A stretch of 44,994 nt of DNA from Candidatus Aenigmatarchaeota archaeon (GTDB taxonomy: Archaea; Aenigmatarchaeota; Aenigmatarchaeia; QMZP01; JAFGSV01): the NCBI GenBank assembly GCA_021163005.1, contig JAGGXP010000042.1, forward strand, positions 1-44,994, in the 5' to 3' direction. Positions 5,193-18,061 of the stretch are shown piece after piece (positions within the stretch are counted from its first letter, which is position 1; every line of letters begins with the position of its first letter). A program made the translations under genes and the position numbers. The notes under the pieces were generated by a model, which saw only the letters and a list, made by a program, of their open reading frames with translations, had not been told where the DNA came from and searched no databases.

Positions 5193-5522
5193 ATGAAGTC
5201 CATAGGAAGGAGCCCTGACGCGGAAATCCTGTACAGCGCAGAGGGAAGGCTGCAGACGCGACTCCAGATGCCGGGAGACGTTTTGCGCAAGATGCTCTAT
5301 ATCGACGATTTTCTTCTCTTCTGCAATGACCAGCTGATGTTCGCGGAGCATTCCGGCGACATAGGCTATGCGAGCCAGCTGAAAAGACGCATAGATAAGT
5401 ACGAAGCTTATACCTTCCCTGATGACGAGTTGGAGGAAATTCTGGACCTCATGGAGTTCTCGGAAGCGCTCGAAAGAGCCTACAGCGAGTACATCAGCCG
5501 TAGAAAACAGGCCTCTTCGTGA
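5193..5522 (+). CDS. Hypothetical protein, about 109 residues
   Basis: Not recognised. The likely start is the ATG at 5193 (MKSIGRSPDAEILYS), about 25 nt after a tttaaa element at 5165-5170, so the transcript would be leaderless. The protein is acidic and predicted mostly helical (DVLRKMLYIDDFLLF, DELEEILDLMEFSEALERAY), with no signal peptide, membrane segment or Cys motif. It is divergently oriented to the aminotransferase gene and overlaps the 3' end of thrS by 29 nt tail to tail, so the two transcripts collide there. Codon use and composition match its neighbours, which supports a real gene. Confidence 0.6.
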   Translation: MKSIGRSPDAEILYSAEGRLQTRLQMPGDVLRKMLYIDDFLLFCNDQLMFAEHSGDIGYASQLKRRIDKYEAYTFPDDELEEILDLMEFSEALERAYSEYISRRKQASS

Positions 5523-7389
5523 GCAGCTTCGGCAGCGGCAGCGGCCTGTATGGGAACCCATCAGTCTGCTTCTTTATGTGCTCAACTATCTGCTTCGTTG
5601 TCATGTCCTTTACCTTTGAAGTCTCCCTGAACCTGACCGCGAGCTTCCCGCTCTTCAGTTCCTTGTCGCCGAGGACGACTATCATGTTCACCCACTCGCT
5701 TTCGGCATCGCGGATTTTCTTGCCGACTGATTCCATCCTGTCGTCCACGTCGGCGCGTATGCCTTCCTTCTCCAGATGCTCCGCGACCCTGAGAACGTCC
5801 CTGTGGAACTTCTCTGAAACCGGACACAGCCTTATCTGGGTGGGAGCCAGCCACAGCGGGAACACCGGATGCTTCCCTGCTCCCTGCTCCATGTGGTACT
5901 TCTCGAGAAGCGCGTACAACACCCTCTCTATTGATCCGCTCGGGGACAGGTGGAGTATCACCGGCTCCTTCCGGGTGTTGTCTGCATCGGTGTATTTGAG
6001 TTTGTAACGCGCTGCATTCTCCACATCTATCTGGTCTGTGGTAAGGCAGGCGGCCTTGTCAAGCGTGTCAACAAAATTCCACTCCTGCTTGAACACGAAA
6101 TAGAAGAACCTCTTGTCCCATATCTCCACGAGTGCGGGCTTTCCCCAACGCTTCACGGTCTCCTTGAGATGCTCCGGATGCTCGTCGTTGAACTCCTTCA
6201 CAGTCCTCACTGACAGTTGCAGTTCATCCAGAAGTCCCAGACCCTGCTGAATCTTCCTCGACACCTCGAACCTTGTCATCATCTCCTCCTTTGCCTGCGG
6301 TATGTCCCTGCATATGGCGTGGCAGTCCGGCATGGTGAACGCCCTGAGCCGCCTGAGCCCAGCGAGTTCGCCCCTCTGCTCCACCCTGAACGAGTACCTC
6401 GTCATCTCGTAGAGCCTGAGCGGCAGGTTCCTGTAGGATATGCTGGCGTCGTGGGTCATGAGGAACTGCCCGAAGCAGGCGGCAAACCTGAGGAACACTC
6501 TCTTGTTAGGCGTCTCTATCGTATACTGCCTTGCGGGGAACCTGTTGAGGTAGTCCTTGAGCGCCGGGTGCTCGTAGTCGTACATTATCGGGGTTTCGAC
6601 TTCCATGGCGCCGTACTTCGCCATGTTCATGTTCACCCAGTCCTCGAGCAGGCTCTTCACCAGCTTGCCCTTCGGGAAGTACCGGAAGTGGCCGGGGTCG
6701 CTTCCCTCCTCGTAGTCCACAAGCTCGAGCCTCTGCATGAGCTTTATGTGCGGCGGCTGCTCTTTCACTTCCCTGCTCTTGGCCATCTCGTACAGCACGA
6801 GCTTCTCCAGCTTCGGATATTTACTGAAGTCGAAACCTTTCACCTTGCCGTTCATCATGGAGATTTTGTTCATCTTGCCTGAAGGCTCCATGACGAACCA
6901 TTCAGATTTGAGCTCACCCTCCTTCCTGAGGGCCTCAGACATGTTCTCGTCGCCTTCCTCTGCCCCCTCTGATGTTATGTCCCTCGAAAGCTCTGCAAGC
7001 GGGTGGCCCTTGCATTTTATGTCAAACGCCTTGTACCAGCCGAACGGCGAGCGCTTAACCTTGAGGCCCTTCTCCAGAAGTTTCTCTTCGACCTTCTTCA
7101 CAACTTCGAGCCCTGTTGCCGGCGATGACGGCGTGTGCGACAGGTGGACGAACGGATAGATAACGATGTTCTTCGCCTTCACCTGCCCGTAAACATCAAG
7201 AATCTCCTTCACGGCATTGGATATTATCCTGCCTTTCGCCTTCTCGTCACTCTTCTCGACACTTGAGAAAACAACGAGCGCCTCCTCGACCCTCACGGGG
7301 TCCTTGCTTTTGATTTCTTCAGCACTCTTGATGGCCTTCTTCTTGGCCTGGTATTCTATAAAATCTGCATGTATAAGCAGTATCTTCAT
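5494..7389 (-). CDS. thrS: Threonyl-tRNA synthetase, archaeal type
   Basis: A 631-residue class II synthetase charging tRNA-Thr. The N-terminus (MKILLIHADFIEYQAK, about 1-140) is the archaea-specific editing domain related to D-Tyr-tRNA deacylase, not the bacterial TGS/SAD editing module. The catalytic core follows, with motif 2 around TRYSFRVEQRGELAGLRR, the zinc-ligand region RFAACFGQ and a motif 3 region LHLSPSGSIERVLYALLE. The C-terminal anticodon-binding domain ends near LTKRPVFYG. A strong Shine-Dalgarno (GGAGGTG) precedes the ATG, and a TATA element about 70-80 nt upstream implies a roughly 45-nt leader with the hairpin listed next. The gene overlaps the convergent hypothetical gene by 29 nt. 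Confidence 0.96.
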   Translation of the reverse strand: MKILLIHADFIEYQAKKKAIKSAEEIKSKDPVRVEEALVVFSSVEKSDEKAKGRIISNAVKEILDVYGQVKAKNIVIYPFVHLSHTPSSPATGLEVVKKVEEKLLEKGLKVKRSPFGWYKAFDIKCKGHPLAELSRDITSEGAEEGDENMSEALRKEGELKSEWFVMEPSGKMNKISMMNGKVKGFDFSKYPKLEKLVLYEMAKSREVKEQPPHIKLMQRLELVDYEEGSDPGHFRYFPKGKLVKSLLEDWVNMNMAKYGAMEVETPIMYDYEHPALKDYLNRFPARQYTIETPNKRVFLRFAACFGQFLMTHDASISYRNLPLRLYEMTRYSFRVEQRGELAGLRRLRAFTMPDCHAICRDIPQAKEEMMTRFEVSRKIQQGLGLLDELQLSVRTVKEFNDEHPEHLKETVKRWGKPALVEIWDKRFFYFVFKQEWNFVDTLDKAACLTTDQIDVENAARYKLKYTDADNTRKEPVILHLSPSGSIERVLYALLEKYHMEQGAGKHPVFPLWLAPTQIRLCPVSEKFHRDVLRVAEHLEKEGIRADVDDRMESVGKKIRDAESEWVNMIVVLGDKELKSGKLAVRFRETSKVKDMTTKQIVEHIKKQTDGFPYRPLPLPKLLTKRPVFYG

Positions 7390-7423: not shown

Positions 7424-7478
7424 TTTACCGCGGCTATTAGTACTTTACACCTTTTTCATTTTAAATATCATACCTGAT

Positions 7479-7496
7479 GTCTAGTGGTCAAGGATA
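7479..7496 (+). repeat. 18-bp intron-free copy of the tRNA-Gln D-arm
   Basis: The 18 bases gtctagtggtcaaggata equal 8411-8423 joined to 8453-8457, that is, the spliced D-arm of the downstream tRNA-Gln without its 29-nt intron. Nothing before or after it matches the tRNA. It lies just upstream of the endonuclease gene and overlaps the start of that gene's TATA-like region. Confidence 0.75.
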
Positions 7497-7523
7497 ATTT
7501 AAGTATTCGAACAAAATATGTTT

Positions 7524-8411
7524 ATGAGGGTAAGGCTGCTCAAAGGCAGGCAAAATGAACTTATAAAAAAAGCAAAAAATGGAAAAACATGGAAAGAATT
7601 GAGCATGGAACTCGGTCTAAATAGCGACTATTTGAGAACAGATATTTCTAAAGAAAAAGTTTTACTAAAACAAGAAACATTCAAGAAGCTTTGTTCCATG
7701 GCAAAAACGGACTTCTCAAAATTTGTGATTGAGATTCTGGATGATAACTGGGGGAAAAAGAAGGGTGGAAGGAATTCTCCAGGCAGAACAAAACATGTCA
7801 ATAAACCATCATTGTCAGAAGAACTTTCAGAATTGATTGGTATAATTCTAGGAGATGGAAGTCTTTATTGGAACAGCTCAAGAGGAGTTTATGCACTAAA
7901 GATCGCTGGAGATATTGAAAAAGAACAGGCATACCACGAAAAAATCGTAAAACCTATGATTGACAGACTTTTCGGTGTAACTTCAAAAATTGAAATTAAG
8001 AAAAATGAAAGATTCGTGTCTGAATTCAGCAAAGAGATAATAAAGATATTAGAGGATTTTGGTTTAAAGAGAGGTAACAAAAAACTGAACAATGTAGGAA
8101 TACCTTCTTGGGTAAAAGAAAATCCCAAATACTTAGCTTCATGTTTAAGAGGACTTATCGATACAGATGGTTCAGTTTTCAGGATGTCTAAGAAAGATCG
8201 CAATCTTGTCAGGATGTCCTTCAAGAATAAATCAGAAAAACTACTTACTGATACCCGTAATGCTTTCATTTACTTGGGGTTTAGCCCTTCAAAGATATTT
8301 GAAAAAGACCATTTTTTTATTTCAAAAAAGTCTGATATAAAAAAATACATCAGAGAGATAAATTTTAATAATCAGAAGCATCTAAGAAGAATAAGAGAAA
8401 CAGCCCCGTAG
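7524..8411 (+). CDS. LAGLIDADG homing endonuclease with N-terminal HTH-like region
   Basis: About 295 residues (297 from the ATG at 7518). The two LAGLIDADG helices are clear: LIGIILGDG (106-114 counted from 7518) and CLRGLIDTDG (209-218), each with the metal-binding acidic residue, so it is a single-chain double-motif enzyme expected to cut an 18-22 bp site. The first 75 residues contain KTWKELSMELGLNSDYLR, an HTH-like segment. The start at 7524 suits a TATA-like atttaagta about 25 nt upstream. The stop TAG (8409-8411) is made of tRNA-Gln bases 8-10, so the gene overlaps the tRNA by 10 nt and carries its promoter. It is much more AT-rich than thrS and dnaJ on either side, indicating recent arrival. 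It is not inside an intron, unlike most intron-encoded relatives. Confidence 0.88.
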   Translation: MRVRLLKGRQNELIKKAKNGKTWKELSMELGLNSDYLRTDISKEKVLLKQETFKKLCSMAKTDFSKFVIEILDDNWGKKKGGRNSPGRTKHVNKPSLSEELSELIGIILGDGSLYWNSSRGVYALKIAGDIEKEQAYHEKIVKPMIDRLFGVTSKIEIKKNERFVSEFSKEIIKILEDFGLKRGNKKLNNVGIPSWVKENPKYLASCLRGLIDTDGSVFRMSKKDRNLVRMSFKNKSEKLLTDTRNAFIYLGFSPSKIFEKDHFFISKKSDIKKYIREINFNNQKHLRRIRETAP

Positions 8412-8423
8412 TCTAGTGGTCAA

Positions 8424-8452
8424 ATTTCTCTATGTAAATGGAGAAAGACTAA
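8424..8452 (+). other. 29-nt noncanonical intron at the D-loop/D-stem border of tRNA-Gln (about 21/22)
   Basis: Exon GGTC (8418-8421) pairs with intron GACT (8447-8450) as the 4-bp central helix. The 3-nt bulges are AAA (8422-8424) and AAG (8451-8453), and the inner helix is TTTCTC/GAGAAA (8425-8430 with 8441-8446, allowing one offset base). Cutting after the second bulge base on each side gives GTGGTCAA joined to GGATAC, a normal D-arm. The same joined sequence occurs intact at 7479-7496. The outer helix is weak, as in many noncanonical introns. Confidence 0.85.
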
Positions 8453-8468
8453 GGATACTCGGCTCTGG

Positions 8469-8534
8469 TAACCTTTTGCGCATGCAGGCGCGCAAAACGT
8501 TAGCGAAAACACGCTGACGCATGAGGTTGGAGGA
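8469..8534 (+). other. 66-nt canonical intron at 37/38 of tRNA-Gln
   Basis: Exon CTCT (8463-8466) pairs with intron GGAG (8529-8532). The bulges are GGT (8467-8469) and GAA (8533-8535), the outer helix is the anticodon stem and the inner helix is AACC/GGTT (8470-8473 with 8525-8528). Inside is an 8-bp hairpin TTTTGCGC/GCGCAAAA. Bases 8470-8521 are homologous to part of the tRNA-Val intron. Confidence 0.9.
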
Positions 8535-8590
8535 ACCGGGGGACCCAGGTTCGAATCCTGGCGGGGCTATTGCCTATTTTTATCGAATTC

Positions 8591-16159: not shown

Positions 16160-18061
16160 TTATTTCTTCTTCTCGTCGTCGACCTTGTACTCCGCATCCA
16201 CGACCTTTTCATTGTCACCCTTTTTGCCCGCTTTCTTGCCGGTCTCTTTCTCTGGCGCTTCATTCCCTTTCTTGGCCGCAGCTTCCTGCGCGGCTTTCTG
16301 GTATATCGATGCGCCTGCTTCGCCGACAACTTTCTGAAGGTTCTCTGTCTCTTTCTTTATCTTTTCGGTGTCGTCGCCTGCCATGGCATCCTTTAAAGAT
16401 TTCATGGCATTTTCTATCTTTTCCTTCTGCTCTTTCGGAAGCTTGTCGCCGAGTTCGGAGAGTGTTTTCTCTGTTGTGTACACGACAGTGTCTGCGTTGT
16501 TTCTTATCTCTATGCTCTCCTTCCTTTTCCTGTCCTCCTCCTCGTGCTCCTTGGCTTCCTTTATCATCCTCTCTATGTCCTCGTCAGACATCTTGCTTGA
16601 CGATGTTATGGAAATCTTCTGCTCCTTGCCTGTGCCGAGGTCTCTGGCGGAGACATTTATGATGCCCGACGCATCTATGTCAAAGGTCACTTCTATCTGG
16701 GGCACTCCCCTTGGAGCCGGCGGTATGCCCTCGAGGTTAAACATGCCGAGGCTTGTGTTGTCCGCGGCCATAGGCCTTTCGCCCTGAAGCACATGCACGG
16801 TCACCGCGGTCTGGTAATCTGCTGCCGTGGAGAATACCTTTTTCTTCTTCACGGGGATGGTCGTGTTCCTCTCAATCAGGGGTGTCATGACGCCGCCAAG
16901 CGTCTCTATACCAAGAGTAAGGGGGGTAACGTCAAGAAGGACCATGTCCTTCACCTCGCCTGCGAGTATTCCTCCCTGGATGGCAGCGCCCATTGCCACG
17001 CATTCCATGGGGTCTATGCCTCTCTCGGCCTTCCTGCCGACGAAATCCTCCACGAACTTTATCACAGCCGGCATCCTCGTCGGTCCGCCGACAAGTATCA
17101 CCTTGTCTATCTTGTCTTTTGTCAGCTTGGCATCGCTTATTGCCTGTTCCATGGGCGCCCTGCACTTTTCGATGATGGGGCTGACAAGCTTCTCGAGCTG
17201 CGCCCTTGTAACTTTCATCGCAAGGTGCTTCGGCCCCTTGTCATCAGCGGTTATGTAGGGCAGGTTTATCTCTGTCTCAAAAACGCCCGAAAGCTCTATC
17301 TTCGCCTTCTCTGCTGCCTCCCTTATTCTCTGGACAGCCATATCGTCGCTGTTGAGGTCTATGCCTTCCTTCTCCTTGAAGTCATCTATGATGTACTTCA
17401 TGAACGCCTCGTCCATGTCCCTTCCGCCGAGATGGGTGTCACCACTTGTTGAAAGCACATTGAATGTGCCCTCTGAGAATTCCATTATTGTCACGTCAAG
17501 CGTGCCTCCGCCGAAATCGAACACAAGAATCTTGTGTTCTTCGTTTTTCTTGTCGATGCCGTATGACATGGCAGCTGCTGTCGGCTCGTTGACAAGCCTG
17601 ACGACCTCGAGACCCGCGATTTTCCCGGCGTCCTTTGTGGCAGTCCTCTGGTTGTCGTCAAAGTAGGCGGGGACAGTTATCACAGCTTTTTCTATCTTCT
17701 CGCCGAGGAACGTTTCAGCATCATCCTTTATCTTCTGGAGAATGAATGCTGAAATCTGCTGAGGTGTGTAATCCTTTCCGTGAATCTTGTATCTGAACTT
17801 CGTGCCCATCTTCCTCTTGGCGCCGCTGATAGTTCCCTCAGGGTTTGAAACCGCCTGCCTTCTTGCGGGCTCGCCGACAAGAATCTGACCGTCCTTCGTG
17901 AATGCCACAACAGACGGGAACATCTTCCCTGCTACTGTGGCGCCTTCTGCAGAAGGTATGATTGTGGGCTTGCCGCCCATCATTACCGCTGCCTGCGAGT
18001 TTGAAGTACCGAGATCTATACCTATTATCTTTTCCTTCTTTTCATCTTTTTTGTCACCCAT
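16160..18061 (-). CDS. dnaK: Chaperone DnaK (Hsp70)
   Basis: 633 residues. The actin-like ATPase domain begins [16 protein letters not shown] (phosphate 1) and carries [26 protein letters not shown] (phosphate 2) and [10 protein letters not shown] (adenosine). The linker [14 protein letters not shown] leads to the substrate-binding domain, with a helical lid (about 510-600) and a charged Lys/Glu C-terminus in place of the usual EEVD-like end. It folds and protects proteins with DnaJ and GrpE. A GGGGTGG Shine-Dalgarno precedes the ATG. grpE lies 46 nt upstream on the same strand, giving a grpE-dnaK operon. Bacterial-type Hsp70 in archaea is a horizontal acquisition. Confidence 0.98.

Follow-up and report, generated by a model that had tools for sequence, protein, structure and literature searches.

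How archaeal tRNA genes gain introns at odd sites has so far gone unexplained; a defence against mobile elements and transposition at the DNA level have been proposed, and no enzyme has been named. The question is raised by a tRNA-Gln gene of Candidatus Aenigmatarchaeota archaeon (assembly GCA_021163005.1, contig JAGGXP010000042.1) that carries two introns, one of them in its D-arm, and lies directly behind a gene for a LAGLIDADG endonuclease. The whole stretch of DNA analysed, 44,994 nucleotides in length, is hereafter referred to as the window. The reading that we favor, at a probability of about 0.7, is that the tRNA-Gln gene was invaded by a LAGLIDADG element which left a stub of the original gene behind, supplied a new 5′ half and endowed the resulting tRNA with a protective bulge-helix-bulge (BHB) intron. 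The features involved are the following.

5494-7389, minus strand: thrS (threonyl-tRNA synthetase), neighbor of tRNA-Gln in the same genus
7460..7469, plus strand: TTTAAATATC, TATA-like candidate remnant of the original tRNA promoter, upstream of the stub
7479..7496, plus strand: GTCTAGTGGTCAAGGATA, the tRNA D-arm copied exactly but without its intron (the stub), aligning with the tRNA of uninserted loci in congeners
7494..7503, plus strand: ATAATTTAAG, putative TATA box for the endonuclease gene, adjoining the D-arm copy
7518..8411, plus strand: LAGLIDADG endonuclease gene, 297 aa (PF14528, E = 6.7e-8)
8402..8569, plus strand: tRNA-Gln(CUG) precursor gene, 168 nt (exons 8402-8423, 8453-8468 and 8535-8569)
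8424..8452, plus strand: D-arm intron, 29 nt, position 21/22 (BHB helix GGTC/GACT, bulges AAA and AAG)
8469..8534, plus strand: anticodon-loop intron, 66 nt, canonical position 37/38, from sequence and fold (BHB helix CTCT/GGAG, bulges GGT and GAA)

A two-intron tRNA-Gln gene overlapped by an endonuclease gene

An earlier note on this DNA had placed a tRNA-Gln with two introns at 8402-8569, and Rfam, folding and an ARAGORN call on the spliced product all showed this placement to be right to the base. The Rfam model RF00005 matched exactly positions 8402-8569, with 37.1 bits against a gathering score of 29. At its default settings, ARAGORN did not call the unspliced tRNA at 8402-8569, and the calls that it produced with one or both introns still in place, Leu and Tyr, are wrong. 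Removal of both introns yielded a 73-nt RNA that was recognized by the same program as tRNA-Gln(ctg), bearing out the note's claim that a normal tRNA-Gln results once 29 and 66 nt are taken out. That the gene might be a pseudogene was ruled out, since the spliced product has intact stems, D-loop, T-loop and anticodon. In the minimum-energy fold of the precursor, both splice-site hairpins appeared unprompted with their bulges at the junctions, and a 4-bp helix between two 3-nt bulges was found at both introns. The D-arm intron is placed between A21 and G22, and its central helix is formed by exon nucleotides G18 G19 U20 C20a pairing with intron GACU; the cut point is ambiguous by up to 2 nt within a shared AA, which leaves the product unchanged.

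Two features were absent from that note, namely the endonuclease gene, which shares 10 nt with the tRNA, and, at 7479-7496, a D-arm copy lacking the intron. Its account of the introns, their splice sites and the splicing endonuclease stands, whereas its view of the D-arm intron as an oddity of RNA processing overlooked the endonuclease insertion. The start codon of the endonuclease gene is likely at 7524, judging from homology. Its stop codon, TAG, consists of T8-A9-G10 of the tRNA, the last 10 nt of the gene being tRNA sequence; in many relatives the open reading frame extends to the TAG at tRNA positions 13-15, so that the last residues (SPVV) are encoded by the tRNA itself. The GC content of the reading frame is ~0.34, versus 0.52-0.58 in its flanks. 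An AlphaFold model of the protein built on 30 sequences (pLDDT 91.7) matches the archaeal enzymes I-Tsp061I (TM 0.74 by target length) and I-DmoI (TM up to 0.69), and the modelled fold is that of a LAGLIDADG endonuclease. The catalytic acidic positions of both LAGLIDADG motifs, LGDG (D113) and IDTDG (D217), are invariant in an alignment of 30 full-length sequences. Residues 1-95 form an N-terminal domain of unknown family with a helix-turn-helix-like pattern, which may set target recognition and is missing from many short homologues that begin near residue 90.

I-DmoI and I-Tsp061I, which are associated with BHB introns of archaeal rRNA genes, share with the enzyme described here the fold, the two catalytic motifs and a BHB intron that splits the target. 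Genes of the I-DmoI type, however, reside inside the intron, whereas the present gene lies outside the intron at 8424-8452 and 5′ of it, ending near or overlapping the acceptor strand of the tRNA. The extra N-terminal domain of ~95 residues and the small size of the intron (just 29 nt, non-coding) further distinguish this system from both.

The D-arm stub and the uninserted locus of congeners

dnaJ failed as an anchor for the orthologous locus, not being conserved beside the tRNA in the family; thrS worked. In three genomes of the same genus (G001, G002 and G003), thrS and tRNA-Gln are adjacent with no endonuclease gene between them. The thrS-side tRNA of G001 has an uninterrupted D-arm, GTCTAGTGGTCAAGGAT, while that of G002 has an intron at 21/22 similar to that of the window. 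In G003 (locus L275), the thrS-side tRNA-Gln carries a different intron, located in the D-loop after G15; within a single genus, one D-arm has therefore acquired interruptions of at least two kinds. The tRNA is also uninterrupted in G004, a member of the same family in which another gene separates it from thrS.

Aligned with these loci, the stub of the window stands at the position of the congeners' tRNA; ~47 nt of the spacer between promoter and tRNA are missing, and a whole tRNA follows ~900 bp beyond the stub. Upstream, TTTAAATATC aligns with the congeners' CTTATAAATATTT and may be what is left of the old tRNA promoter. Given the position of the stub and the existence of uninserted loci, the comparison shows that the gene was inserted into a tRNA gene and that a complete tRNA was regenerated; GTCTAGTGGTCAAGGATA is read as a stub of the original 5′ half. 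The acceptor strand is not recognizable in the window's stub (4/7 identity).

Similar copies precede the gene elsewhere. Of 31 full-length loci, 21 have a D-arm copy in the 90 nt ahead of the gene at p ≤ 0.05 and 17 at p ≤ 0.01, these p-values serving as guides only because the loci are related to each other. A score of at least 18 was reached by 20 of the 31 forward sequences, by none when reversed and by one when reverse-complemented; related loci are not independent in these counts, and the D-arm anchors of some weak stubs were picked by eye. At three loci (L122, L124 and L133) the copy extends over the acceptor strand, with 7/7 identity, and at L133 the entire 5′ half of the cognate tRNA is present, GCCCTGGTGGTGTAGTCCGGTCAATCAT, lacking the intron seen in the downstream tRNA. 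No consistent 5′ stub was found in front of bacterial and short homologues, where L195 and L181 gave weak hits.

The copy in front of the gene might instead be an operator, bound by the endonuclease to repress its own gene and kept by selection, as some homing endonucleases are repressors of their own gene. In many loci the copy abuts an A/T-rich box located ~20-40 nt before the start codon, a similar box following the D-arm copy in relatives; in the window this box would be ATAATTTAAG, the putative TATA box of the endonuclease gene. About half of the copies are changed at G18 G19, as read by eye, which could block self-cutting. The D-arm part of the copies has been kept (80% identity) and the acceptor part has decayed (39%), a comparison that is biased by anchoring on the D-arm. 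The three loci that keep acceptor-strand sequence, for their part, are explained by a scar, whereas an operator has no need of a whole 5′ half. We consider an operator role less likely than not; it is compatible with the insertion scar that we favor, in that a scar could later have been put to use as an operator.

Homologues, their probable tRNA targets and D-arm introns in other genomes

Homologues of the endonuclease are found mostly in DPANN archaea (Pacearchaeota, Woesearchaeota, Aenigmatarchaeota, Diapherotrites and others), with some distant ones in CPR and Omnitrophota bacteria. A tRNA gene lies directly downstream on the same strand in 75 of 81 distinct homologues, and in 67 of these it falls between -30 and +60 nt from the point where homology ends; of the six lacking such a tRNA, two are cut off by the edge of their contig. 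Very frequently the reading frame is closed by a TAG that belongs to the tRNA, at positions 13-15 or 8-10. That this layout might be an assembly artefact was rejected because it recurs in dozens of independent assemblies. A search for a viral carrier returned distant LAGLIDADG relatives with up to 39% identity over short pieces and no full-length one.

The tRNA was readable at 29 full-length loci, where introns and isotypes, assigned partly by eye, came to 17 Gln, 11 Glu and 1 Asp, with a D-arm intron in 19 of the 29. The other ten have no D-arm intron; their D-loop is one base longer or their D-stem is altered. The uninterrupted consensus, GTCTAGYGGYCAAGGAT, was seen in none of these 29 endonuclease-linked tRNAs. 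At L153 and L158 the endonuclease-linked tRNA-Gln has an intron near position 10, in the 5′ strand of the D-stem, in addition to one in the anticodon loop. An extra T-arm intron occurs in tRNA-Gln genes beside an endonuclease (L135 and L147) as well as without one (L276 and L277).

In a tree of the endonucleases (29 rows), target type (Gln versus Glu/Asp) changes once, and host (the window's class versus others) three times. A branch with full SH-aLRT support separates G000 (Gln) from its congener G001 (Asp). The tree thus splits by tRNA target and not by host. This pattern would be expected of target-driven enzymes that move horizontally, and paralogy could contribute to it.

The D-arm intron is itself a recurrent class. 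Introns at the same site (21/22) were found in 20 tRNAs at other loci, or 21 with the tRNA-Gln of the window, all with the same BHB architecture, the exon GGYC facing a GRCU-like intron end; for the window, the helix GGTC/GACT with bulges AAA and AAG is as the earlier note had drawn it. Over these 21 introns, 83 of 84 pairs of the central helix are standard and position 20 covaries, U being paired with A or G and C with G only (Fisher p = 0.006). The recurrence at 20 further loci, the standard pairing and the covariation show that the D-arm BHB motif is not due to chance.

The intron could, nonetheless, have come first, as an ordinary noncanonical archaeal tRNA intron beside which an endonuclease merely settled without any functional link, tRNA genes being common insertion sites. 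Consistent with this, G002 has the intron and no endonuclease, and seven of the ten pattern-matched 21/22 introns in the window's class likewise stand without the gene, from which it follows that the intron is able to exist or persist alone. The gene is, in contrast, found near three of the ten D-arm loci of this class that are interrupted and near none of the 30 that are not (p = 0.012), and all tRNAs linked to an endonuclease in the full-length set have a D-arm that is either altered or split by an intron. The contrast supports a link between endonuclease and intron at the same time as it shows that the intron frequently stands alone. The stubs speak to the order of events: in the window and at L129, L133 and L138, the D-arm of the stub is joined and intron-free, and the invaded tRNA was hence uninterrupted. 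We therefore judge it unlikely that the intron preceded the gene.

In bacteria (loci L167-L196, CPR and Omnitrophota), distant homologues are located just 5′ of intron-free tRNAs, often tRNA-Ser. To our knowledge, hosts of this type do not splice BHB introns, and protection must then work otherwise there.

Proposed course of events, precedents and splicing

The favored reading, that of an invasion by an endonuclease element, would run as follows. The element would have inserted itself into the 5′ half of a tRNA-Gln gene that lay next to thrS and was then uninterrupted, the enzyme most likely cutting the uninterrupted D-arm. The break would be repaired by homology, the donor carrying the endonuclease gene between a D-arm copy on the left and a tRNA on the right, such that the element brings its own homology arms together with a substitute 5′ half. 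The old D-arm would remain as the stub at 7479-7496, and the element's own tRNA 5′ half would complete the tRNA behind the gene. The 29-nt mini-intron, probably arriving together with the element, or an altered D-arm in other lineages, would render the new tRNA immune: an intron at 21/22 splits the D-arm DNA most likely recognized by the enzyme and would thereby guard the locus from recutting. The host's splicing endonuclease would then remove the intron from the RNA. The gene could later be lost, for instance by recombination between the two D-arm copies, and the intron could remain, as in G002.

Insertion of an endonuclease thus offers an explanation for the D-arm intron and suggests a route by which archaeal tRNA genes acquire some of their introns. 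Repeatedly, over many genomes, the intron is found here together with a DNA endonuclease, the probable target of that enzyme, an insertion scar and an uninserted locus, which opens the question of intron origin to a direct test with a single purified enzyme and short duplexes of DNA. More tentatively, and with somewhat less than an even chance in our estimation, the family could be a general maker of tRNA introns across DPANN, cutting the D-arm, swapping the 5′ half, leaving a mini-intron as a mark of immunity and frequently being lost while the intron is kept; under such a generalization, the front D-arm copy may serve as a self-repression site as well, and the Caldiarchaeum case described below may be the same phenomenon.

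The layout has one precedent. In the tRNA-Thr(GGU) gene of Caldiarchaeum subterraneum, an intron-free 5′ fragment (1-27) is followed by an insertion with a single 813-bp ORF (Sugahara et al. 2012, PMC3293823) and by a tRNA with a new D-arm intron at 24/25, polymorphic in the population, for which intron gain through a mobile element was proposed (PMC3293823). The ORF was assigned to DNA binding/recombination by SVMProt, a non-homology method, and an integrase model was put forward (PMC3293823). Both layouts thus comprise an upstream intron-free fragment, a one-ORF segment and a tRNA with a D-arm intron. The Caldiarchaeum case concerns one lineage and position 24/25, whereas here the gene is of the LAGLIDADG family, the site is 21/22 of tRNA-Gln/Glu/Asp and the layout occurs in dozens of genomes. 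What is new is the identity of the enzyme, the breadth of its occurrence and a specificity that follows the target.

By analogy with that model (PMC3293823), a site-specific integrase or plasmid could have placed the segment in the window with the endonuclease as cargo. tRNA genes are usual targets of integrases, which leave a tRNA fragment on one side, and integrative elements of the SSV/pNOB8 type resemble the present locus in having such a fragment on one side (here 7479-7496) and a regenerated tRNA on the other (8402-8569). Unlike them, the unit described here consists of a single gene and is sited in the D-arm; the endonuclease is the sole gene between stub and tRNA in the window and its relatives, with no integrase in the interval, and target specificity tracks the endonuclease tree. 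An integrase origin is on these grounds very improbable, and insertion by the endonuclease itself is the reading retained.

Free-standing endonucleases engaged in collaborative homing and phage enzymes of the SegB type are encoded beside, rather than in, the intron or tRNA gene that is protected, as is the case here. They differ in enzyme family and host, and we know of no regenerated tRNA half or D-arm stub in those systems. The intron-rich tRNAs of Thermoproteales provide a further parallel, with multiple noncanonical BHB introns per tRNA and introns that spread (Fujishima et al. 2010, as cited in PMC4090602); that review describes the mechanism of spread, and of tRNA intron transposition, as unknown (PMC4090602), whereas here a DNA endonuclease is tied to one intron class. 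A literature search, with subscription journals mostly outside its coverage, returned no report that connects D-arm introns with a LAGLIDADG gene located 5′ of tRNAs.

The permissive splicing endonuclease that had been predicted to exist elsewhere in the genome was found in the form of a three-unit EndA of the epsilon-2 type (398 aa), which matches the ARMAN-2 epsilon-2 enzyme (PDB 4fz2) over nearly its whole length (residues 14-398, E = 1.4e-87). Enzymes of this type reportedly accept noncanonical bulges (PMC12397907). The finding ties a permissive epsilon-2 splicing enzyme to the tolerance of such insertions. A second EndA gene, of the alpha type (188 aa), lies beside tRNA genes on another contig (L001:1234-1800, contig C1); either this small genome has two types of EndA or the contig is a foreign one in the bin.

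Only seven tRNAs scored above the Rfam gathering threshold in 945 kb of the window's genome, in which many tRNA genes are probably hidden by introns. A hairpin repeat was observed as an intron in several of its tRNA genes, at T-loop and anticodon-loop sites:

TTTTCCGCTTCGCGCAAAAGCGTTAACGGAAAA, hairpin repeat in the window's own genome: L048:4241, L049:186, L051:10441-10590, L065:13663 and 13704, L076:18047, L086(-):19560, L070:12487

Up to four tandem copies are present in one Thr tRNA and a diverged copy lies inside an apparent 16S rRNA gene; the copies in tRNA genes look like a recent spread of introns within one genome. The 66-nt anticodon-loop intron of the window's tRNA-Gln shares the short motif GCGCAAAACGTTAGCGAAA with this repeat, its membership of the family being tentative because it is more than 6 edits away from the 30-nt core. 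Diverged relatives of the hairpin, TTCCGCTTGCGCCAAAAGCTTAACGAAAA, occur in apparent intergenic repeat clusters at 17097 and 17305 of the window (reverse-complement coordinates) and at L060, L073, L075, L249 and L258, so that a dispersed palindromic repeat may be the source of these tRNA introns.
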